Below are positions 27,287-39,988 of a stretch of DNA of 64,000 nucleotides, piece after piece; within the stretch, counting starts at the first letter, position 1, and each line of letters starts with the position of its first letter. The DNA is from Anaerolineales bacterium (GTDB taxonomy: Bacteria; Chloroflexota; Anaerolineae; Anaerolineales; UBA4823). Location of the stretch: positions 244,357-308,356 of the forward strand of contig JANXBJ010000001.1 in NCBI GenBank assembly GCA_025057645.1, given 5' to 3'. The translations under genes and the position numbers were made by a program. The notes below the pieces were generated by a model. The model did no database searches and was not told the origin of the DNA. It saw only the letters and a list, made by a program, of their open reading frames with translations.

Positions 27287-28162
27287 ATGGAGAACGTGAT
27301 CTACTTTGGTGACAACCTGTCAATTTTAGAGCGGTTACCCTCCGAGTCGATCGATCTGATCTATATCGATCCCCCCTTCAACACCCGAAAGATGCAGCGG
27401 CGCACCCAGATTCGCACTATCCGCTCGGAAGATGGTGATCGGGTAGGTTTCCAAGGCGCGCGTTACCGAACTATTCCTATTGGGACGAAAGCCTACTTGG
27501 ATTGGTTTGACGATTTCTTAGAGTTTTTAGAGCCGCGCTTGCGCGAGGCGCAGCGTTTGCTTAAGGAGCATGGCTCGCTGTATTTTCATATTGACTATCG
27601 CGAAGTGCATTATTGTAAGATACTCCTCGATGCGATTTTTGGGCGAGAATGCTTTCTAAATGAAATTATCTGGGCTTACGACTTTGGCGGCCGCACAAGA
27701 AGACGGTGGCCACCGAAGCATGACAACATCCTCGTTTATGTGAAAAATCCCCGGAAGTACCTCTTCAATTACGAGGAAATTGAAAGGATACCCTATATGG
27801 CCCCGGGGCTGGTGGGCCCGGAAAAAGCCCGGCGAGGGAAAACTCCCACAGACACCTGGTGGCATACGATTGTCCCCACGAACGGAAAGGAGAAAACAGG
27901 TTACCCAACCCAAAAGCCGTTGGGAATTTTAGAGCGCATCATCCGTGCTTCTAGCCCTAGGGGTGGGGTGGTTTTGGATTTCTTCGCTGGCAGTGGCACC
28001 ACTGGCGAAGCAGCTTGGAAGTTAGGGAGATACTTCATCTTGATTGATAATAACCCCGAAGCAATGCGGGTTATGGCGAAGCGCTTTCGAGACATCGATT
28101 CGATCCGCTGGGTTGGGTTCGATCCCCAAGGGTCTGACTGGGAAGAGCATAAGGGACTATAG
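27287..28162 (+). CDS. Orphan DNA methyltransferase (N4-cytosine/N6-adenine, beta class)
   Basis: 291 residues. Motif IV DPPF (28-31) comes before the SAM-binding FAGSGTTGEAAW near residue 238, the order of beta-class DNA amino-methyltransferases. The region between them (GGRTRRRWPPKHDNILVYVKN) is the target-recognition part; NGKEKTGYPTQKPLGILERII is also typical. No restriction endonuclease gene is adjacent, so it is probably a solitary regulatory or protective methylase. It converges with alr, overlapping by 6 bases. Confidence 0.92.
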   Translation: MENVIYFGDNLSILERLPSESIDLIYIDPPFNTRKMQRRTQIRTIRSEDGDRVGFQGARYRTIPIGTKAYLDWFDDFLEFLEPRLREAQRLLKEHGSLYFHIDYREVHYCKILLDAIFGRECFLNEIIWAYDFGGRTRRRWPPKHDNILVYVKNPRKYLFNYEEIERIPYMAPGLVGPEKARRGKTPTDTWWHTIVPTNGKEKTGYPTQKPLGILERIIRASSPRGGVVLDFFAGSGTTGEAAWKLGRYFILIDNNPEAMRVMAKRFRDIDSIRWVGFDPQGSDWEEHKGL

Positions 28163-29282: not shown

Positions 29283-30728
29283 CTATAGCACAGTAACGTC
29301 GTGGACTCCCGATTCGACTTGAGAAGAGTGGGTAATGCGGATAAACTCAGCTTTTTCAACCAGTTCAGTGAGGTTCGTGGCTCCGCAGTAGCTCATGCCG
29401 GAGCGCAGCCCGCCCAGCAATTGATGTAGTACCTCGTTAAGCGAGCCACGATAGGGCACGACAGCTTCTACCCCCTCAGGGACAATGTCACTCCACTCCT
29501 CCCAATCTACATCGTTTTGATGATCGAGCTTGCGACGAGTGATATTGGCGGTTAGAGAGGCCATGCCACGCACTACTTTGTAGGCCTGTCCATTGCGGAA
29601 GATGGTCGGCCCCGGGCTTTCCTTAGTGCCGCTGAGTAAGCTGCCCAGCATCACCGTGCTTGCTCCAGCGGCTAAGGCCTTAGTAATGTCCCCTGAATTG
29701 CGAATTCCCCCGTCAGCAATGATCGGCACGCCCAATCTGCGCCCGGCCTCGGCGCAATCGGCGATCGCCGTCAGTTGAGGCACACCGAAGCCGGTAACGA
29801 TTCGGGTGATGCAGATCGAACCCGAACCGACCCCCACCTTAACTGCATCCGCACCAGCTTGGTGGAGATCGGATACTCCTTCTGGGGTTGCTACGTTCCC
29901 AGCAATAATCGGGACAGAGGGGAATTCGCGTTTCAGTTGTTGGACCATACGAATGACGATTTCAAGATGTCCATGGGCGACGTCCACTACCAACACGTCC
30001 GCCTCTGCCGCAACGCAGGCCCGGGCGCGTTCTAGATCGGATGGATTCGCTCCGACAGCGGCTCCTACTCTTAGGCGACCTTTGGAATCTTTGGTTGCTT
30101 GGGGATGCTCTTGAATCTTGATAATGTCCTGAGCGGTGACTAGTCCGACCACTCGATCGTTGGCGTCCACTAGCGGAAGCTTTTCAATCCGGTGCTGGTA
30201 AAGTTTTTGGCGCGCAAGCGTAAGGGGTTCGTCTGCAGCAGCGACAACTAATCGCTCTCTAGGAGTCATGGCGTCCTGGACTTTTGCCGAGAGGTCCGGT
30301 GCGAGTAAAATGTCGCGGGTGGTGATTATTCCAAGGAGAGTGCCCTCAGCATCGGTTACAACGAGGCCTCCGATATCCGCCTGAAGCATTCGCCTGCGAG
30401 CCTCCTCAAGTGTAGCCGTGGGTGGAATGGTCAATGGATTTTCGACCACAAAGCTTTCGGCACGCTTGACGCGCTGAACCATCTCCGCTTGGCGCTGCAC
30501 CGTCATAAAGCGATGCAAGATCCCAATTCCACCCGCACGCGCCATAGCGATGGCCATTTCGCTCTCTGTGACGGTATCCATGTTAGCGCTGACGATCGGG
30601 ATGGCCAGTTGGATTTGGGGAGTTAGCCAAGCGGAGAGATCGATTTGCTTACGGCTGACAACAGCAGATCGCTTGGGGATAAGGAGAACATCGTCAAACG
30701 TTAGGCCGAGATCGGGTCTTAACTTCAT
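29283..30728 (-). CDS. guaB: IMP dehydrogenase
   Basis: 481 residues from the ATG at 30728 (site GGAGGTAGC). The start [21 protein letters not shown], the paired CBS domains (about 95-205) inserted in the barrel, the catalytic [15 protein letters not shown] loop and the C-terminal RGMASL motif are diagnostic. GuaB oxidises IMP to XMP with NAD, the rate-limiting step of GMP synthesis. The CBS pair allows allosteric control by purine nucleotides. alr follows as the next gene. Confidence 0.97.
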
Positions 30729-30836
30729 GCTACCTCCGAAACTTGCCGGCCAAAGCGCTTTAGCAGTTGGAGAGGCGTATGCTCTTGAAATGGTCGGAAG
30801 TCGGCAAGGCGTTTGTTTCCCAGAATTGCTTATTAT

Positions 30837-30866
30837 TATATACCCTTCGAGGAATCTGTTTGTAAA
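30837..30866 (-). promoter_or_regulatory. Probable promoter of guaB-alr
   Basis: On the minus strand TTTACA (30861-30866) and TATATA (30837-30842) are separated by 18 bases. A leader of about 100 nt follows, ending in a GGAGGTAGC ribosome-binding site. Confidence 0.5.
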
Positions 30867-30879
30867 AGGTGACAAAAAT

Positions 30880-30917: not shown

Positions 30918-30946
30918 TTGACTTTGTTTTTCGTTTTCTATAGAAT
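30918..30946 (+). promoter_or_regulatory. Promoter of the aromatic amino acid operon
   Basis: TTGACT (30918-30923) and TAGAAT (30941-30946) with a 17-base spacer. The predicted start near 30953 is only about 2 bases before the ATG of the leader peptide. Confidence 0.85.
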
Positions 30947-30954
30947 TTAAGCAA

Positions 30955-31032
30955 ATGAGGACCTGGTTTGCTTCGTACCGCTACTTTTATTACTTTGGCA
31001 GGGTGCCCCCGGTTGCCGTTGGCGGTGCTTAA
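30955..31032 (+). CDS. Leader peptide of the aro operon attenuator
   Basis: 25 codons plus TAA. The peptide begins MRTWFASYRYFYYF and continues with a Pro/Val/Gly/Ala tail (residues 15-25). Of its first 14 residues eight are aromatic: Trp4, Phe5, Tyr8, Tyr10, Phe11, Tyr12, Tyr13, Phe14. The predicted transcription start is almost at the ATG and no ribosome-binding site is present, so it would be translated from a leaderless transcript. It ends 34 bases before an intrinsic terminator and 81 bases before aroH. The sequence fits a ribosome-mediated attenuator sensing Tyr/Phe (and Trp) tRNA charging. It is too short for standard gene callers. Confidence 0.85.
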   Translation: MRTWFASYRYFYYFGRVPPVAVGGA

Positions 31033-31082
31033 GCAAACGGAAGGTCTAGTTGCTGAAAACAATTTCCTGCGAAGCCAACGGC
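31015..31082 (+). promoter_or_regulatory. Antiterminator pairing of the aro attenuator
   Basis: GCCGTTGGC (31015-31023, within leader codons 21-23) is the exact complement of GCCAACGGC (31074-31082), which forms the loop and inner stem of the terminator. A ribosome stalled at the aromatic codons would leave the first segment free to pair. One that reaches the stop codon would cover it and allow termination. An upstream GGCAGGG (30997-31003) can also pair with parts of 31008-31017. Confidence 0.75.
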
Positions 31083-31097
31083 TTCGCAGATTTTTTT
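31067..31097 (+). terminator. Attenuator terminator upstream of aroH
   Basis: A 10-bp perfect stem CTGCGAAGCC (31067-31076)/GGCTTCGCAG (31080-31089) with a 3-base loop AAC, followed by A and seven Ts. It lies 16 bases before the aroH ATG, inside the operon leader, and so must be conditional. Confidence 0.92.
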
Positions 31098-31113
31098 ATT
31101 TAGGAGTCGAGAG

Positions 31114-31488
31114 ATGGCTTTGCGTGGGATTCGTGGCGCCATAGTAGTCGCAGAGGACACACCCGAAGCGATCCTTGCGGCTGCTCACCAGTTGCTGGAA
31201 GCGATTCTGATCGCCAATCCTTCTCTCCATCCTGAGGAGGTTGCAAGCTGTTTCTTTACGGTGACACCGGATTTGACAGCGGAATATCCAGCCAAGGCTG
31301 CGCGGCTTATGGGATGGTCGGAAGTTCCGTTGATCTGTGCTCAGGAGATGGACGTTCCGCATGGCCTGAAGCGCTGTCTCCGCATCCTCATTCATTGGAA
31401 TACGGAATTGAATCCCTCGGAAATAGAACATGTTTACCTCGGGGAAGCAGCTCGACTGCGACCTGAATGGGAGTTTCCAAGATCGTAG
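31114..31488 (+). CDS. aroH: Chorismate mutase, AroH class
   Basis: 124 residues. The trimeric AroH-type mutase converts chorismate to prephenate for Phe and Tyr. Residues matching the Bacillus subtilis active site fall at the same positions: Arg7 (LRGIRGA), Cys75 and Glu78 (CAQEMDV), Arg90 (CLRIL) and Tyr108 (HVYLG). It is the first structural gene of the operon and follows the attenuator with a TAGGAG site. No fused prephenate dehydrogenase or dehydratase domain is present; tyrA is two genes downstream. Confidence 0.96.
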
Positions 31489-31516: not shown

Positions 31517-32557
31517 ATGATCATCATCATGAAAGCCCAAGCGACCCAAGCTCAGATCGAAGCTGTGGTGCGCCGCATTGAAGAGTGCGGTTTGCGCGCT
31601 CATCTTTCCCAAGGGGAAGAGCGCTGTATTATCGGTGCCATCGGAGATGACCGCCCTATCCCGAAAGATCCGTTCATGGTTCTGGATGGTGTTGAACAAG
31701 TTCTCCCGATTTTGAAGCCGTATAAGTTGGCCTCGCGGGATTTTCAGTCTACCAACACGGTCTTTCGTCTAGATGGGGTAACCATTGGCTCAAATTCGAT
31801 TGTGATTATCGCCGGGCCTTGTTCTGTTGAAGACCGCGTTCAATATATCGAAACCGCTTTCGCCGTCCGGGAGGCTGGAGCTCATGCCCTGCGCGGCGGA
31901 GCCTATAAGCCGCGCACCTCGCCCTACTCTTTCCAGGGGCTAGGTGAAGCCGGTTTGGAAATTTTAGCCGAAGCGCGAGAATTGACCGGCATGCCGGTGG
32001 TGACGGAAGTGATGGCTCCAGAGCAGGTGCCTTTGGTGGCCAAGTATGCCGATGTAATGCAGATCGGAGCGCGTAACATGCAGAATTACGCCTTGCTCCA
32101 CGCAGCCGGGAGAAGTCAACACCCAGTGTTGATCAAGAGGGGAATGAGCGCCACGATTGAAGAATTGCTGATGTCGGCCGAGTATGTTCTCTCCCATGGC
32201 AACCGGCGGGTGATCTTATGTGAACGAGGGATTCGCACTTTCGAGACGGCGACGCGCAACACCACCGATATCAATGCCATTCCGGTTCTGAAAGAAGCTA
32301 CTCACCTGCCGGTCATTTTAGATCCCAGTCATAGCACTGGCAAATGGGAGTACGTGACGGCGATTGCCAGAGCGGCTGTGGCGGCCGGCGCCGATGGCTT
32401 GATGATCGAAGTGCACCCGAACCCGGCAGAAGCCAAGTCGGATGGTGCGCAGTCCTTGAAACCGGAGCGTTTTGCAGAGCTGGTGCGTCAGGTACGGCTG
32501 GTTGCGGAGGCCGTGGGGAGAGACCTAAAGGCTTCGGAGCCTGCTCTTGCCCAATGA
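31517..32557 (+). CDS. aroF: DAHP synthase (3-deoxy-7-phosphoheptulonate synthase)
   Basis: 346 residues from the ATG at 31517 with an AAAGGAG site. Residues 1-80 form a ferredoxin-like regulatory domain, as in Thermotoga DAHP synthase, followed by the catalytic barrel ([61 protein letters not shown]). It condenses PEP with erythrose-4-phosphate, the first step of the shikimate pathway. The N-terminal domain usually confers Tyr/Phe feedback inhibition. The stop overlaps the tyrA ATG. Confidence 0.96.
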
Positions 32558-33414
32558 ACAGCCAGCTTCCGCTGTCTCTTGCACATTGTCGGGTCTTGAT
32601 CGTGGGGCTGGGGCTCATGGGAGCTTCCCTTGCCTTGGCCTTGCGAGGCAAGTGTAAGGCTCTCTATGGAGTGGATCGGAATGAGGACACTTGTCGTTTA
32701 GCTCTGATGCATGAAGTGGTGGATGCAGTTTGGCAGGATGCCACCAAGACCCGCCCGGTGGATATGATGATCTTAGCTGTTCCAGTAGGACAGATTTTGG
32801 GCTTGCTTGAACAAATTAACGAAGCGATTCTGACACCAACCGTTATTATGGATGTCGGTTCGACCAAGACGGTGATCTGCCGGGCAATGGAGAAACTGGC
32901 TGAGCATCTTGATCCCATCGGGGGACATCCGATGTGCGGCAAGGAAACCCTAGGGATCCAGTCCGCTGACGCAGCAATTTATCAAGGCGCTCCATTTGCA
33001 TTAGTGCCTTTAGAGCGTACCAGCTCCTACGCCAAGTCCCTCGCAGAGCAGTTGGTTGCAGCAATTGGTAGTCGTGTTGTTTGGCTGGATGCCGAAACCC
33101 ACGATCGGATAGTTGCTGCGGTAAGCCATTTGCCCTATCTGCTGGCGAGTGCCCTGACACTCAGTGTGCCCTTGGAGTTAACCTCTCTCATCGGGCCCGG
33201 TTTTCGCAGCAGCACGCGGTTGGCAGCCACGCCGACCACGATGATGTTGGATGTGCTAAAAACGAATCGCTCCTTTATTCTGGAAGCGGTTGAACGAGTG
33301 GAAGAGGAATTATCCCGCCTAAAGGCCTATCTTTACCGTGAGGAGTATGAACTCTTGAACTCTCGGCTGAATGTTGCTGCCGAACATCTGCAAAGAATCC
33401 TTCAGAAGGAATAA
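32554..33414 (+). CDS. tyrA: Prephenate/arogenate dehydrogenase
   Basis: 286 residues from the ATG at 32554 (ATGA overlap with aroF). The NAD(P)-binding [14 protein letters not shown] (17-30), [32 protein letters not shown] and [13 protein letters not shown] are TyrA motifs. It oxidatively decarboxylates prephenate or arogenate toward tyrosine. Cofactor and substrate preference cannot be read reliably. No C-terminal ACT domain is present, so regulation is likely at the level of transcription and DAHP synthase. Confidence 0.94.
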
Positions 33415-33418
33415 CTCG

Positions 33419-34744
33419 ATGAAATGTATTGTGAGAAGCGGAAAACCTCTTCGGGGTCGCATCCATCTCCCCGGGGATAAGTCCCTTTCCCATCGAGCAA
33501 TTTTGTTCTCTGCGCTGGCGGAAGGGGAGAGCGAAATCGAAAATGTCTTGCTAGCAGGGGTGACCAGGCCCATGCTCGAGGCATTGACGGCTTTTGGAGT
33601 GGGTTGGTCTTTGGTCGATCGACGCCTGACTGTCAATGGTAGAGGGTTGGAAGGCTGGCAGAGCCCAGGTACAGTGATTGATTGTGGCAATTCAGCAACG
33701 ACGATGCGGCTGCTCGCCGGAGCAATGGCGGCGACCAACGTGAGCGGTATACTGGATGGCACAGCCGGCCTAAGGCGGCGACCGATGGACCGCATTGTCA
33801 GACCCCTCCAGAGGATGGGCGTTGACATCCGATCTACAGAGGGTTTTGCTCCATTATTCCTGAGTCGCTCAGAACGGCCCCTACGGGGCATGGAACACGA
33901 GCTTTCGGTTGCCAGCGCGCAAGTGAAGACCGGCTTAATCTTGGCGGCATTAGTGGCAGATTCGCCTACTCATATTTACGAGCCCGCCCGCTCCCGCGAC
34001 CACACCGAGCGGATGCTTCGTAGTATGGGGGCTGAGATTGAGACGGGTCCGGTTGAGGGTGGGCGTTACGTTTACCAAACCCGAGTCCGCCCCTTGAGTA
34101 GCTCGCTAAAGCCGCTTCGCATGCGTCTGCCCGGGGATGTCTCGTCGGCCGCTTTCTTTGTAGTGAGCGGTCTGGTAGTCCCTGACTCGGAGATCGAGAT
34201 CGAAAATGTGGGGCTAAATCCCACCCGCACCGGGCTGTTGGACACTTTGCTCGAGATGCAGGCAATTCTCGAAGCTGAAGAGACAAGCGTGGAAGGGGGA
34301 GAGCCTTGTGGTCGCATCCGTGTGCGTTTTTCTTCCTTGAACGCAAGCAAGGTGAGCGGTGAGCGAGTGGTGCGAATGATCGATGAGTTCCCGGTATTGG
34401 GCGTAGCTGCGGCTTACGCCAGAGGCGAAACGCTCGTCGCCGATGCGCAAGAGTTGCGCTATAAGGAGTCGGACCGGATTGCAAGATTATGTCAAGAGCT
34501 GAGGAAATTGGGGGTGGAAGCGACTGAAACTCAGGATGGCTTTCGGATTGTCGGTAAAGGGAGGGTGGAAGGGGGAACTGTCGAAGCTCACGGTGATCAT
34601 CGCTTGGCAATGGCGCTGATCGTTGCCGGTCTGGCTTCAAAGGAGCCGGTGGTCGTCAACGGTGCAGAGGTGGTCGGTGAATCTTTGCCGGAATTTATCC
34701 CTCTCCTGCGCTCTTTAGGGGCAGAAGTGCTTTGTGAAGACTAA
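33419..34744 (+). CDS. aroA: EPSP synthase (3-phosphoshikimate 1-carboxyvinyltransferase)
   Basis: 441 residues from the ATG at 33419, after an AGAAGGAA site. The start PLRGRIHLPGDKSLSHRAILFSALAEG, the DCGNSATTMRLLAG and LRRRPMDRIVRPLQRMG motifs, RSRDHTERML and DHRLAMALIVAGL are all diagnostic. It transfers enolpyruvyl from PEP to shikimate-3-phosphate. The DCGNSATTMRLL loop has the class II-like Ala/Thr pattern, so glyphosate sensitivity is not obvious from sequence. Confidence 0.96.
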   Translation: MKCIVRSGKPLRGRIHLPGDKSLSHRAILFSALAEGESEIENVLLAGVTRPMLEALTAFGVGWSLVDRRLTVNGRGLEGWQSPGTVIDCGNSATTMRLLAGAMAATNVSGILDGTAGLRRRPMDRIVRPLQRMGVDIRSTEGFAPLFLSRSERPLRGMEHELSVASAQVKTGLILAALVADSPTHIYEPARSRDHTERMLRSMGAEIETGPVEGGRYVYQTRVRPLSSSLKPLRMRLPGDVSSAAFFVVSGLVVPDSEIEIENVGLNPTRTGLLDTLLEMQAILEAEETSVEGGEPCGRIRVRFSSLNASKVSGERVVRMIDEFPVLGVAAAYARGETLVADAQELRYKESDRIARLCQELRKLGVEATETQDGFRIVGKGRVEGGTVEAHGDHRLAMALIVAGLASKEPVVVNGAEVVGESLPEFIPLLRSLGAEVLCED

Positions 34745-34749
34745 GAAAG

Positions 34750-35634
34750 ATGGCTTACCGCTTTGGCTTGCTTGGGTACCCTTTGACCTATAGCCTTTCT
34801 CCTTATATCCATCAGGTGTTTCTAGAGGAGTGTGGCTTCCGAGGCGAGTATGAGCTAATTCCTATTGCGGTTGATGAACAGCTTGCCCAGCGACTTCAAA
34901 CCATTTTGGCAAGAATGCGCCAAGGAGAGTATGATGGGCTGAATGTGACCATTCCGCATAAGCAAGCTGTCAAAGGGTTTTTAGACTCTCTGGATGAAGA
35001 AGCAAAGGCGGTTGGTGCAGTGAATACGATTTACCGCCAGCACCCTCTTCTGGTGGGAACTAACACCGACGTGGAGGGTTTTTTGGTGGATCTGGAGAGG
35101 GGGATGCCCTTGGATGCGGGAGGGACGGCTCTGATCCTCGGCGCGGGCGGCGCAGCGCGAGCTGTGGCCTTTGGCTTGCTATCCAAGGGGTGGCGAGTCT
35201 TGATTGCGGCGCGGCGCCTTGCCCAAGCCCAGGAGGTCGTTTGCAATTTGCTCTCCCATCAGGACGTGAAAATGGAGCGGATAAAGGCCCTTCCTTTGAG
35301 CCATGAAATGGAACTCCCTCCGGAGGATTGGCAAGAGCTACGCTTGGTGGTTAATGCCACTCCCTTAGGGACGAAAGGACTGGAGCAGGGCTCGCCCCTC
35401 CCCTCCAAATTTCGTTGCCCTCGGAACACTTGTTTCTACGACTTGGTTTATAATCCGCCTGAAACGACTTTTTTGCGGCAAGCCCGGGAGCGAGGATGCT
35501 CTGCTCGGAATGGCCTAGGAATGTTGATCCATCAAGCTGCATTAGCCTTCGAGCATTGGACAGGCTGTAAGATTGCGGTCACGCCGCAACTTGAAGCCCG
35601 GATCATGGCGAGGATTTGGCAAGATGAGAATTGA
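34750..35634 (+). CDS. aroE: Shikimate dehydrogenase
   Basis: 294 residues. The substrate-binding start FGLLGYPLTYSLSPYIHQVF, the catalytic NVTIPHKQAVKGFLD (Lys in PHK), GAVNTIYR, NTDVEGF, the NADP-binding LILGAGGAARAVAFGL and NATPLG complete the AroE pattern. It reduces 3-dehydroshikimate to shikimate. The gene starts 5 bases after aroA and overlaps the aminotransferase by 11 bases. Confidence 0.96.
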   Translation: MAYRFGLLGYPLTYSLSPYIHQVFLEECGFRGEYELIPIAVDEQLAQRLQTILARMRQGEYDGLNVTIPHKQAVKGFLDSLDEEAKAVGAVNTIYRQHPLLVGTNTDVEGFLVDLERGMPLDAGGTALILGAGGAARAVAFGLLSKGWRVLIAARRLAQAQEVVCNLLSHQDVKMERIKALPLSHEMELPPEDWQELRLVVNATPLGTKGLEQGSPLPSKFRCPRNTCFYDLVYNPPETTFLRQARERGCSARNGLGMLIHQAALAFEHWTGCKIAVTPQLEARIMARIWQDEN

Positions 35635-36796
35635 AGCTGCGACACGAATGCAAACCCTGAGCACACAATTTTTTGCCGGCCTATCTGCGCGGATAGCCGC
35701 TCTGGAGGCTCAAGGGAACAGGGTAATCCGCTTGGATATCGGCTCTCCAGATTTACCACCTCCCTCTCCGATCTTGGATGCCCTTTACCGTTCGGCAAAC
35801 CGATCGGATACGCACGGATATCAACCCCACCGCGGAAGCGAGGCGTTGTTAAACGCTTGGTCGTATATGTATCGAAGTGCATATGGGGTCGAGATCGACC
35901 CAAAAAGCGAAGTGGTGCCCCTATTGGGTTCAAAAGAGGGTATCTTTCATTTCGTCCAAGCTTTCGTGAACCCAGGTGATGTAGTGTTGATTCCGGACCC
36001 GGGTTACCTAACGTACGAAGCAGCCGCTCGCTTTGCCGGAGGCGAAGTGTATCGCATGCCTCTACTCCCTGAAAACAACTTCTTGCCCGACTTTGAAGCC
36101 ATTCCCGCCGAAGTGGCTAGGCGGGCGAAACTGATGTGGCTCAACTATCCGAACAACCCAACGGCTGCTACGGCAACCCGCGAGTTCTTTGAGCGTGCTG
36201 TTGAATTCGCAAAAGGATATCAGATTTTGGTTTGTCACGATGCAGCCTATTCTCAGGTCACTTTTGATGGCTACCGATCTCCCTCAATTTTCGAAGTTGA
36301 TCGGGAAAAGGAGGTTGCGATTGAGTTTAACACCTTATCGAAGTCGCATAATATGGCAGGCTGGCGGGTGGGGGCTGCGCTTGGGAATGCAGAGACCTTA
36401 AAGACCCTTTACACCCTAAAGACCCAAGTAGACTCGGGACACTTCCGGCCAATTCTGGATGCGGCAGTCCAGGCGATGACGGGGGACCAAGGGTGGTTGC
36501 AAGAACGCAATCAGGTCTATCAGCGCCGGCGCGATCTGATTGTCGATGCCCTCAGGCGGGTTGGCGTCGAGGTGCGTGTTCCTCTGGCTTCGCTTTATGT
36601 TTGGATGCCTTTGCCAAGCGGCTGGAAGAGCGAGGAGTTTTGCCAAAGGTTGCTAGAGGAAGCGCATGTCAGTATTACCCCAGGTACGGTATTCGGCAAA
36701 TATGGCGAGGGCTCGGCACGCATTTGCTTTTGTTTGGCAGATGATCTAATCGTGGAGGCGATGGAACGCCTCACGCAGTGGATGAAGAAACTATGA
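35624..36796 (+). CDS. Class I/II PLP aminotransferase, aromatic amino acid or LL-DAP type
   Basis: 390 residues from the ATG at 35624; MQTL at 35648 is a later alternative. The PLP-fold motifs VIRLDIGSPDLPPP, LLGSKEGIFHF, WLNYPNNPTAA, CHDAAYSQVTFDG and the Schiff-base Lys in FNTLSKSHNMAGWRVG identify the aminotransferase I/II family close to LL-diaminopimelate aminotransferase-like proteins. Its place inside the aro operon, right after aroE and before aroC, favours a role in the last transamination to Phe/Tyr. That role is inferred from context. Confidence 0.88.
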   Translation: MRIEAATRMQTLSTQFFAGLSARIAALEAQGNRVIRLDIGSPDLPPPSPILDALYRSANRSDTHGYQPHRGSEALLNAWSYMYRSAYGVEIDPKSEVVPLLGSKEGIFHFVQAFVNPGDVVLIPDPGYLTYEAAARFAGGEVYRMPLLPENNFLPDFEAIPAEVARRAKLMWLNYPNNPTAATATREFFERAVEFAKGYQILVCHDAAYSQVTFDGYRSPSIFEVDREKEVAIEFNTLSKSHNMAGWRVGAALGNAETLKTLYTLKTQVDSGHFRPILDAAVQAMTGDQGWLQERNQVYQRRRDLIVDALRRVGVEVRVPLASLYVWMPLPSGWKSEEFCQRLLEEAHVSITPGTVFGKYGEGSARICFCLADDLIVEAMERLTQWMKKL

Positions 36797-37962
36797 GCTT
36801 GCGGTTCTTAACTGCTGGCGAATCGCATGGCCCTGCCCTAGTTGCCATTTTAGAAGGCATTCCCGCTGGTTTGCCCTTGGATTTGGAATTTATCAATCGG
36901 GAATTGAAGCGTCGTCAAGTGGGGTATGGCGCTGGACCACGGATGAAACTGGAAGAGGACCGTGCGGTTTTTCTGAGCGGAATCATGGAGGGGAGGACGA
37001 TCGGTGCTCCGTTGGCGATCCTGATTGAGAATTTAGACCATAGTCGTTGGAAAGGGAAAGCGATCGAGGCCATGACCATCCCGCGGCCCGGTCATGCCGA
37101 CCTCACTGCGACCTTGAAATACGGCTATCGGGACTTGCGTCCGGCGCTAGAAAGGGCTTCGGCTCGGGAGACCGCAGCAAGAGTTGCAGTGGGCGCGGTA
37201 TGTAAGTTATACTTGCGTCAATTTGACATCCGTGTTGAGGGGTATGTGTGTTCGATCGCCGAAATTGAAGCGCAGGTCGGTGACCTACCTTTGGAGAAGC
37301 GGTTTGAGCTTTCTGAGAGGTCGCCTCTCCGGTGTCCTGATGAAAGTGCGGCCCAGGCAATGCAAGAGCGCATTCGGCGGGCGATGGTAGAGAAGGAGAC
37401 GCTCGGTGGGGTTCTGGAGGTAATTGTCTTCGGAGCGCCACCCGGGCTGGGCTCGCATGTGCAGTGGGATCGCCGACTGGAGGCTCGGTTGGGTGCTGCC
37501 TTGTTGAGCATTCAGGCCATAAAAGGAGTGGAGATCGGGCCGGCCTTTGCGAATACCCGCCTTAGCGGCACGCAGGCCCAAGATGGGATCTTCCTAGAAG
37601 AAAAGCGTCTCGTGCGACGCACCCACCGCAGCGGGGGAATCGAGGGTGGAATCTCAACCGGCGAGCCAATTCTCGTGCGGGCTGCTATGAAACCAATTGC
37701 CACCACTCTAACCCCTCAACCTTCCGTGGATTTATTGAAGGGGGAAGAGACTTTCACCCGTTACGAGCGCTCCGATTTTTGCCCGGTGCCACGCGCAGTG
37801 CCGATCCTCGAGGCGATGGTTGCCTATGTGATCGCCGATGCCCTAATCGAAAAGTTGGGCGGCGACTCACTCCAAGAGCAATTGCAACGCTTTGCGCAAT
37901 TGCCCAAAATGACCCTTGATCACTTCTCTCTGGAGGGGAGCAAGCATCTCTTTTGGGAATGA
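36793..37962 (+). CDS. aroC: Chorismate synthase
   Basis: 389 residues from the ATG at 36793 (ATGA overlap). LRFLTAGESHGPALVAILEGIPAGLPL, the RRQVGYGAGPRMKLEEDRAVFLSGI segment, PRPGHADLTATLKYGYRDLRPALERASARETAARVA and RTHRSGGIEGGISTGEPI are diagnostic. The FMN-dependent enzyme eliminates phosphate from EPSP to give chorismate. It ends in an ATGA overlap with the aroK-aroB fusion. Confidence 0.97.
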   Translation: MSLRFLTAGESHGPALVAILEGIPAGLPLDLEFINRELKRRQVGYGAGPRMKLEEDRAVFLSGIMEGRTIGAPLAILIENLDHSRWKGKAIEAMTIPRPGHADLTATLKYGYRDLRPALERASARETAARVAVGAVCKLYLRQFDIRVEGYVCSIAEIEAQVGDLPLEKRFELSERSPLRCPDESAAQAMQERIRRAMVEKETLGGVLEVIVFGAPPGLGSHVQWDRRLEARLGAALLSIQAIKGVEIGPAFANTRLSGTQAQDGIFLEEKRLVRRTHRSGGIEGGISTGEPILVRAAMKPIATTLTPQPSVDLLKGEETFTRYERSDFCPVPRAVPILEAMVAYVIADALIEKLGGDSLQEQLQRFAQLPKMTLDHFSLEGSKHLFWE

Positions 37963-39542
37963 TGAACATTTACCTTTATGGTCCTCCGGCTTCGGGAAAA
38001 TCCACTGTGGGCGCCCGGCTGGCGGAACGTACCGGCCTTGCCTTTGTCGACCTAGATGAGCTAATTGAACGTAGTGCAGGTCAGAGTATTCCCCAAATCT
38101 TTGAGCGAGAAGGGGAGCAAGGATTTCGTAAACGTGAACGCGAGGCGTTGCGACGGGTGGCGGCTGCCACAAACCAAGTGGTCGCCTTGGGCGGCGGTGC
38201 CCTGCTCGACTTCAGGAATCGCAAGCTATGCGAGCAGAGTGGGAAAGTCTTTTGTTTACGGGCGAGTTACCCCGCCCTTCTGCGACGTCTGAGCTTGGAT
38301 CGAAACCAACGTCCGCTGTTGGCAGAAGATGCCGCAGTTCAGCTCGAGAGATTATTGAGTGAGCGCTTGCCCCATTACTTGTCTTTTGAATCCCAAATCG
38401 AAGTTGAGGCTCGCTCAGTCGAGGAGATTGTATGGGAGATTCAGCTAAAAGTGGGAATGTTTCGGGTGCAGGGCATGGGAGCAGACTACCCAGTGCGTAT
38501 TCAGAGCGGTGGACGATATAAGTTAGGCCAAATTCTACGCCAACAAGGGTTCGAGGGCTTGGCTTTCATCCTGAGCGATGAAAATGTAGCAAAGCATTAC
38601 CTCCGCGATGTAGAGCAAGCTCTTCACTCCGAAGGAATACGCTCTCATGCGATGATCCTCCCCGCTGGTGAGCAGACCAAAAATATTCACACCCTTCAGG
38701 AAGTTTGGACGGAGATGATCAGGGCGGGCGTTGACCGGACAAGCTGGCTAGTCGCTCTGGGCGGTGGAGTGATCGGCGATATTGGTGGCTTTGCTGCGGC
38801 TACTTATATGCGCGGTATCCCTTGGGTTGTGCTCCCCACAACCTTGCTGGCGATGGCTGATGCTAGCTTGGGAGGCAAGACCGGAGTGGATTTGGCCCAA
38901 GGAAAGAACCTTGTCGGTGCTTTTCATGCTCCACGCTTGGTCTTGGCTGACTTGGAAACCTTGGCCACTTTGCCGGAAGCCGAGTGGCGGGCCGGCATGG
39001 CCGAAGTGGTGAAAGCAGGGGTTATCGGTGATGCATACCTGTTTGAAGTTTGTGAGAGTGGGGAAGATGGGGTGCGTGGGAGAATGGCGGAGCTCTTGCC
39101 TCGGGCGATGGGGGTCAAGATCAAAGTGATCGAAGAAGATCCCTATGAACGCGGCAGACGGGCCGCACTAAATTTTGGGCATACAGTTGCTCATGCTATT
39201 GAAACGCTTTCAGGTTATCGAATTTTGCACGGCTTTGCGGTGGCGATGGGAATGGTTGCCGAAGCTCAGCTTGCCTACCAGATCGGTCTGGCACCGATGG
39301 AAATCAAAGAGCGTATCGAGGCAGCTCTGCGAGGCTTGGGGTTACCCACCCGCCTGCCTCGGCGCTTTGCACCTCAGGCGGTTCTGCAGGCCATGCAGGC
39401 CGATAAGAAGAAACAGCTGGGCGAATTGCGCTTTGCCTTACCAGAGCGAATCGGTTTTGTGCGGGTGGGCATCCGTCTCTCCGAAGAAGAGGAGCTGCTC
39501 GAAGCGCTCCGAGTTTGTCAGGAGGAAGGAACACTAGGATGA
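37959..39542 (+). CDS. aroKB: Bifunctional shikimate kinase / 3-dehydroquinate synthase
   Basis: 527 residues from ATG-ATG at 37959. Residues 1-165 are shikimate kinase: P-loop GPPASGKST (8-16), VDLDELIE, FRKREREAL and ALGGGALLD. Residues from about 170 are dehydroquinate synthase: LPAGEQTKN, ALGGGVIGDIGGFAAATYMRGI, VPTTLLAMADAS-type LPTTLLAMADASLGGKTGVDL, and the LNFGHTVAHAIE metal site. The kinase phosphorylates shikimate and the synthase makes 3-dehydroquinate from DAHP, so two separated pathway steps share one chain. Confidence 0.95.
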   Translation: MMNIYLYGPPASGKSTVGARLAERTGLAFVDLDELIERSAGQSIPQIFEREGEQGFRKREREALRRVAAATNQVVALGGGALLDFRNRKLCEQSGKVFCLRASYPALLRRLSLDRNQRPLLAEDAAVQLERLLSERLPHYLSFESQIEVEARSVEEIVWEIQLKVGMFRVQGMGADYPVRIQSGGRYKLGQILRQQGFEGLAFILSDENVAKHYLRDVEQALHSEGIRSHAMILPAGEQTKNIHTLQEVWTEMIRAGVDRTSWLVALGGGVIGDIGGFAAATYMRGIPWVVLPTTLLAMADASLGGKTGVDLAQGKNLVGAFHAPRLVLADLETLATLPEAEWRAGMAEVVKAGVIGDAYLFEVCESGEDGVRGRMAELLPRAMGVKIKVIEEDPYERGRRAALNFGHTVAHAIETLSGYRILHGFAVAMGMVAEAQLAYQIGLAPMEIKERIEAALRGLGLPTRLPRRFAPQAVLQAMQADKKKQLGELRFALPERIGFVRVGIRLSEEEELLEALRVCQEEGTLG

Positions 39543-39988
39543 GAGAGGTCCTTGTCTTACACGGTCCTAACCTCAATCTCTTGGGGCAACGAGAACCTCA
39601 AGTGTATGGGTCGCTGACACTGGAGGAGATCAACCGTCGGTTGATCGCCGAGGGGGAAAAGCTAGGGCTCAAAGTGCGTTGTTTTCAATCCAATTGCGAA
39701 GGGGTGCTAATCGATCAGTTGCAAGCAGCACAGAGCTGGGCTGCAGGAGTGGTCTTTAATCCAGGGGGCTATACCCATACTTCGGTAGCTTTGCGGGATG
39801 CGATCTCAGCTATTGGAATTCCGGTGATCGAAGTTCATCTTTCTAACGTTGATGCGCGCGAAGAATTTCGGCATCGCTCTCTAATATCTGGGGTATGCTG
39901 GGGGAAGATTTCGGGTTTTGGCTGGAAATCCTATTGGCTTGCTTTGCACGCCTTTGCCTTGCGCTTTCGCGAAGAGGAATTGCGATAA
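39539..39988 (+). CDS. aroQ: Type II 3-dehydroquinate dehydratase
   Basis: 149 residues from the ATG at 39539, again in an ATGA overlap. VLVLHGPNLNLLGQREPQVYG, CFQSNCEGVLIDQLQAA, FNPGGYTHTSVALRDAI and PVIEVHLSNVDAREEFRHRS are the type II signatures (the Tyr in QVYG and the His of EVHLSN are catalytic). It dehydrates 3-dehydroquinate to 3-dehydroshikimate, completing the shikimate set of the operon. Confidence 0.96.
   Translation: MREVLVLHGPNLNLLGQREPQVYGSLTLEEINRRLIAEGEKLGLKVRCFQSNCEGVLIDQLQAAQSWAAGVVFNPGGYTHTSVALRDAISAIGIPVIEVHLSNVDAREEFRHRSLISGVCWGKISGFGWKSYWLALHAFALRFREEELR

Follow-up and report, generated by a model that had tools for sequence, protein, structure and literature searches.

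A predicted ribosome-mediated transcription attenuator with an aromatic-rich, probably leaderless leader ORF before the aro operon of Anaerolineales and their relatives

Most of what is known of amino acid attenuators comes from Proteobacteria and Actinobacteria. In the trpL leader of Escherichia coli, the decision depends on the helices 1:2, 2:3, and 3:4, with termination as the default. The trpL leader senses Trp only, governs the trp genes, and has its antiterminator strand after the leader codons, and the leader that we describe here differs on each of these points. The antiterminator strand of E. coli pheL is likewise located downstream of its leader ORF. The present leader resembles pheL in that aromatic codons occur in a run, in that helices 2:3 and 3:4 are alternatives and, in the folding model described below, in antitermination only with the ribosome on or near the Phe codons. 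However, pheL senses Phe only, whereas the present leader carries Tyr, Phe, and Trp codons, and the regulatory codons are located 2–10 codons before the stop in pheL but 12–22 codons before it here, a shift explained by the location of the antiterminator strand within the last five codons. The closest known functional case, by its description, is aroR-aroF of Corynebacterium glutamicum, in which a Phe-Tyr-Phe leader precedes the DAHP synthase (aroF) operon (Neshat et al, 2014, via PMC11802643) and ribosome stalling at the Phe/Tyr codons leads to more transcription under Phe limitation (PMC11802643). As it is described there, aroR belongs to the Actinobacteria, whereas the leaders reported here have 5–9 aromatic codons, often with Trp, precede a complete shikimate operon, and occur in Chloroflexota. 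Attenuator leader mRNAs translated from the extreme 5′ end have been reported for trpL1, leuL, and ilvL of Streptomyces lividans (PMC8079986), which represent a different phylum and different amino acids, and leaderlessness in the present case is predicted from promoter position. The mechanism proposed for our element is classical trp/phe-type ribosome-mediated attenuation, and what appears undescribed is its occurrence in this phylum, its control of an entire pathway, and the placement of the antiterminator strand within the last codons of the leader. In the literature examined, we found no paper on attenuation in amino acid operons of Chloroflexota, and it is possible that the element was predicted earlier, in the survey of Lopatovskaya et al (2010) or by Neshat et al (2014).

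The locus was analysed in the window, the whole stretch of 64,000 nucleotides from a genome of the order Anaerolineales, and all the features given below are on its plus strand unless otherwise indicated. Inspection of the sequence indicated that the sigma-70-type promoter TTGACT-17-TAGAAT, which had been claimed in a sequence-only reading of this DNA, is present at 30918–30946, with the -35 hexamer TTGACT at 30918–30923 and the -10 hexamer TAGAAT at 30941–30946, and its position places the predicted transcription start at about 30953. The 25-codon ORF that the same reading had placed near this start, lacking a ribosome-binding site, was likewise found at 30955–31032, both in the sequence and by comparison with homologous leaders; it encodes MRTWFASYRYFYYFGRVPPVAVGGA followed by a stop codon, and its ATG is only 8 nt past the -10 hexamer, so that a Shine-Dalgarno sequence would not fit. 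The first 14 residues of the peptide contain 4 Tyr, 3 Phe, and 1 Trp, exactly as had been noted, and the regulatory codons W4, F5, Y8, Y10, F11, Y12, Y13, and F14 extend over 30964–30996, being codons -22 to -12 when counted back from the stop codon. The intrinsic terminator at 31067–31097 (segments 3:4) has a 10-bp stem, the loop AAC, and a U7 tract, being written CTGCGAAGCC(AAC)GGCTTCGCAG at 31067–31089 and then T7, and it ends 16 nt before the aroH ATG at 31114, in agreement with the original description. The Shine-Dalgarno sequence of aroH, AGGAG, was read at 31102–31106. Segment 2, the antiterminator strand GCCGUUGGCGGUGC, is located at 31015–31028 within the final five codons of the ORF, and its partner is the 5′ arm plus loop of the terminator. 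The perfect 9-nt complement pointed out before, GCCGTTGGC at 31015–31023 with GCCAACGGC at 31074–31082, is present, and the antiterminator is even longer than that, since past tandem GG/AA mismatches a UGC:GCG pairing adds 31026–31028 with 31069–31071. An addition to the earlier list of elements is a protector helix 1:2, in which segment 1, at about 30959–30979, pairs with a 3′ partner at 31024–31047 that spans the stop codon.

An ordinary terminator preceded by a chance ORF, with no regulation, would be the simplest explanation of such an arrangement, and from this single genome it would permit the ORF at about 1 in 1000: an ORF window of 12 codons with 8 aromatics occurred in 5 of 5000 dinucleotide shuffles, and, when strand 2 was shuffled, equally good pairing with the terminator arm was obtained in 11 of 5000 cases. 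The z-score of the window leader was -3.86. A chance origin of the ORF and the antiterminator in the window is unlikely on these values, and the decisive evidence is conservation. We sought AroH in an order-level sample of 151 genomes and read the upstream DNA, which gave 88 usable aroH upstream regions. As a result, an ORF with an aromatic cluster and then an intrinsic terminator was found in 78 of the 88, representing 14 of 15 labelled families, and five of the ten exceptions have the leader before aroF instead (four of f13 and one of f5; L175, L181, L182, L184, and L186). The conditions named beforehand as refuting the attenuator were thus not encountered, to the extent that sequence can address them. 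The density of Phe, Tyr, and Trp in the 78 leaders was 5–9 codons per 12, and clusters of 6–9 aromatics per 12 codons were present in 71 of the 88 upstream regions compared with 34 of 1760 shuffles. The leader is nearly identical in L031, the AroH of which is 80% identical to that of the window. With the coding selection and covariation presented below, which extend over 14 families of the order plus another class, the chance explanation is refuted and can be given almost no credence.

The composition of the leaders suggests what they may respond to. Codons -15 to -12 are aromatic in 64–68 of the 78 leaders, in which Tyr codons (267) and Phe codons (248) dominate over Trp codons (27, present in 27 of the 78 leaders). 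We therefore infer a pan-aromatic sensor that is chiefly responsive to Tyr and Phe; the proposal that one leader senses Tyr, Phe, and Trp would hold for the first two, but Trp is a minor component. When similar leaders were compared over the core, codons -19 to -12, the codon differences numbered 629, of which 414 were synonymous or aromatic-to-aromatic, whereas the same test gave 42 of 727 (6%) and 197 of 901 (22%) in the other two frames. By this comparative evidence, the leader ORF appears to be under coding selection and hence to be translated.

The strong conservation of the aromatic core could also be expected if the peptide itself were the effector, either by arrest of the nascent chain or by action in trans like peTrpL, rather than by reporting tRNA charging, and trans-acting attenuator peptides do exist (PMC7298713). 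However, Phe and Tyr swap freely at identical positions, accounting for 254 aromatic-to-aromatic differences, and the number and spacing of the aromatics vary. The conserved peptide end, AVGGA before the stop, is accounted for by the RNA. The sequences upstream of aroH in L015 and L042 constitute a natural experiment that separates peptide from RNA: ahead of the antiterminator strand, the reading frame is shifted by one base and runs into TAG a few nucleotides on, which alters the peptide end, and yet the RNA GCCGTTGGTGGTGCTTAAG or GCCGTTGGCGGCGCTTAAG is retained. Because these two leaders lose the peptide end but keep the RNA, the conserved end is best read as an RNA constraint, and we regard an effector peptide as highly unlikely.

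A promoter resembling TTGACN-17-TANNNT was found for 70 of the 78 leaders, and 48 of these promoters scored 10 or more of the 12 possible matches, compared with 4 of 74 control regions. In 49 of the 70 leaders with a promoter, the first in-frame ATG is only 6–14 nt after the -10 element (mode, 10), and this proximity to a near-consensus promoter leads to the prediction of a leaderless or near-leaderless mRNA. None of these 49 leaders has a Shine-Dalgarno match, whereas 7 of the 21 leaders with longer UTRs and 78% of aroH starts do. The leaderlessness first suggested for the window is thus predicted, from sequence comparison, to be conserved in most genomes, being apparent in about 49 of 70 by promoter position, but the remaining 21 have predicted 5′ UTRs of roughly 11–30 nt. 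A confinement of the predicted leaderlessness to the genus of the window was ruled out by the spacing of ATG and promoter across the 78 homologous leaders. The conserved predicted start could serve as a natural test of leaderless initiation coupled to attenuation.

The comparison of homologues also provided evidence for the RNA helices. The mean energy of the antiterminator duplex was -21.0 kcal/mol with its own partner, -18.5 kcal/mol (SD 0.3) with partners swapped between genomes, and -13.5 kcal/mol with shuffled ones, and 89% of the alignment cells of this helix were paired compared with 32–46% for slid versions. The 9-nt complement was kept in the homologues with compensatory change, as exemplified by CTGTTAG with CTAACAG in L008 and GAGCAGGTTGCTCC with GGAGCAACCTGCTC in L084. 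Two-sided changes in the terminator stem numbered 109 compared with 28 in shuffles. For helix 1:2, the duplex was at -17.0 kcal/mol with its own partner and at -12.1 kcal/mol (SD 0.35) with swapped partners, and this partner-swap test is its sole support, only 52.6% of the cells being paired in fixed alignment columns; the failure in fixed columns is due to the variable position of segment 1, which slides within the ORF. Three mutually exclusive helices, the protector 1:2, the antiterminator 2:3, and the terminator 3:4, are thus supported by covariation or partner-swap tests as the probable structures. A search of Rfam with the window and the leader gave no family at the gathering score, neither Phe_leader nor Trp_leader nor any other, and only a chance miRNA match (E = 2.1), and the alignment and the covariance model could become a new family of the Rfam type.

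That the 3:4 hairpin acts in termination was weighed against the alternative that the leader controls the initiation of aroH translation, with the hairpin hiding or freeing the ribosome-binding site. In the genus of the window, the aroH start comes only about 25 nt after the hairpin, as would be favorable for such control. However, a U tract follows the hairpin, the Shine-Dalgarno sequence is left unpaired, the distance of the hairpin to aroH is about 17 to 91 nt depending on the family, and the stem covaries as a terminator, all of which make control of translation initiation very unlikely. We consider that the aro operon is very probably under ribosome-mediated attenuation of transcription, the element having a translated-type ORF rich in codons for the products, an intrinsic terminator before the first gene, a covarying antiterminator exclusive with the terminator, and a protector helix 1:2 as indicated by the swap test. 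The attenuation reading as a whole is supported by conservation, coding selection, and covariation, which are comparative sequence evidence.

To relate the position of the ribosome to the RNA structure, we used a model in which the ribosome footprint was masked codon by codon and the RNA was folded up to the terminator loop. Averaged over the leaders, the probability of the antiterminator was 0.09 without a ribosome; it was 0.44–0.61 when the A-site was placed on codons -19 to -11 and 0 when the ribosome was anywhere between codon -5 and the stop. In the window leader, it was 0.97 at most aromatic codons and 0 from codon -10 through the stop; the aromatic codons end at -12, and the modelled antiterminator is lost from -10. 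The claim that a stalled ribosome frees the antiterminator strand and a ribosome at the stop codon covers it would agree with this constrained folding (0.97 vs 0 in the window). About half of the leaders never reached a probability above 0.5 in this simple model. As positive controls, E. coli pheL gave a probability of about 1.0 at Phe codons -10 to -4 and 0 at the stop, and E. coli trpL gave a weak signal in the same model. In full-length equilibrium folding, the terminator was always preferred (probability of about 0.9–0.97), so that, as for other attenuators, the control would have to be kinetic.

The proposed operation of the attenuator may be as follows. With transcription starting about 2 nt ahead of the ATG of the leader, a ribosome would initiate on the nearly leaderless mRNA. 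When Tyr-tRNA or Phe-tRNA, and here also Trp-tRNA, is short, the ribosome could stall in codons 4–14, covering segment 1 and leaving segment 2 free. At a time when the 3′ arm of the terminator does not yet exist, free segment 2 would pair with its 5′ arm plus loop, and the antiterminator so formed would allow RNA polymerase to continue into aroH and the whole operon. When aminoacyl-tRNAs are plentiful, the ribosome would reach the stop codon and cover segment 2, so that the terminator could form. In an untranslated leader, helix 1:2 would compete for segment 2, presumably resulting in termination by default.

The genes downstream of the leader, aroH to aroQ, are arranged head to tail in the window and were all confirmed by Pfam. 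They encode type I chorismate mutase (aroH, 31114–31488, PF07736), DAHP synthase (aroF, 31520–32557, PF00793), prephenate dehydrogenase (tyrA, 32539–33414, start approximate, PF02153), EPSP synthase (aroA, 33422–34744, PF00275), shikimate dehydrogenase (aroE, 34750–35634, PF08501), a class I/II aminotransferase (35624–36796, start approximate, PF00155), chorismate synthase (aroC, 36793–37962, PF01264), a fused shikimate kinase and dehydroquinate synthase (aroKB, 37962–39542, PF01202 and PF01761), and type II dehydroquinase (aroQ, 39542–39988, PF01220). No excess of promoter- or terminator-like sites was found within the aro operon compared with shuffled sequence. The order aroH-aroF-tyrA-aroA-aroE-aroC-aroKB-aroQ was observed downstream of the leader in 10 of the 13 relatives examined, and aroQ is displaced by about 3 kb in L165. 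The suggestion that the entire shikimate pathway is governed could therefore apply to the window and to those 10 of 13 sampled relatives, in which the operon is complete, but not everywhere. One short leader appears to set a whole pathway, from DAHP synthase to tyrosine, and the element would represent an attenuator conserved deep in a phylum other than the Proteobacteria and Actinobacteria.

The distribution beyond the order was determined with a covariance model, R2, built from the leaders, and at the thresholds used it matched 82 of the 396 genomes searched within the class and 34 of the 400 searched within the phylum; weak matches (E = 0.001–0.01) were counted only where the gene and leader were read. 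Among these weak matches, L188 and L197 looked like chance and were rejected as true leaders. The genome of the window itself has a single R2 site, the aro leader, and has no such leader before its trpE-like, aspartokinase, or pheA genes. In other Anaerolineae families, for which the class-level matches were read, the aromatic leader precedes aroH, and aroF or pheA comes next; in some of them (L130, L142, L143, L144, and L196), it precedes a pheA (prephenate dehydratase) operon and not the full shikimate set, with pheA adjoining aroH in most. Outside the class, aromatic aroH leaders with terminators and complementary strands were found in f82, f92, f118, and f121 (L198–L205), which appear to be Chloroflexia, and some cultivated Chloroflexia appear to carry the aromatic leader. 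No such leader was present in the samples read from f87, f100, f105, f113, f120, f135, and f147, and no aromatic leader was seen before aroH at loci of three Planctomycetes, two Streptomyces, and one other actinobacterium (L032–L037).

A similar scaffold was also observed before aspartokinase operons of class-level relatives (L125, L127, L128, L141, L145, and L176), with a GCCGTTGC strand, a GCGGAGCC terminator, and an ATG close to the promoter. These leaders are rich in Thr and Met, for example, MFEQRDSWMTTTMMTTTPKRVAVASS followed by a stop codon, and would be Thr/Met attenuators of aspartokinase operons in Chloroflexota. It is about an even chance that an old scaffold is common to Anaerolineae and Chloroflexia, mostly leaderless, with the antiterminator in the last leader codons and with exchangeable regulatory codons, aromatic for whole shikimate operons and Thr/Met for aspartokinase operons.

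On the other side of the promoter, an ORF on the minus strand at 29283–30875, which resembles IMP dehydrogenase (guaB) as named from its translation, is divergent from the aro operon, and its upstream region thus abuts the attenuator promoter. A putative site-specific DNA methyltransferase, also named from its translation, is located at 27287–28162 on the plus strand, beside alanine racemase and guaB.
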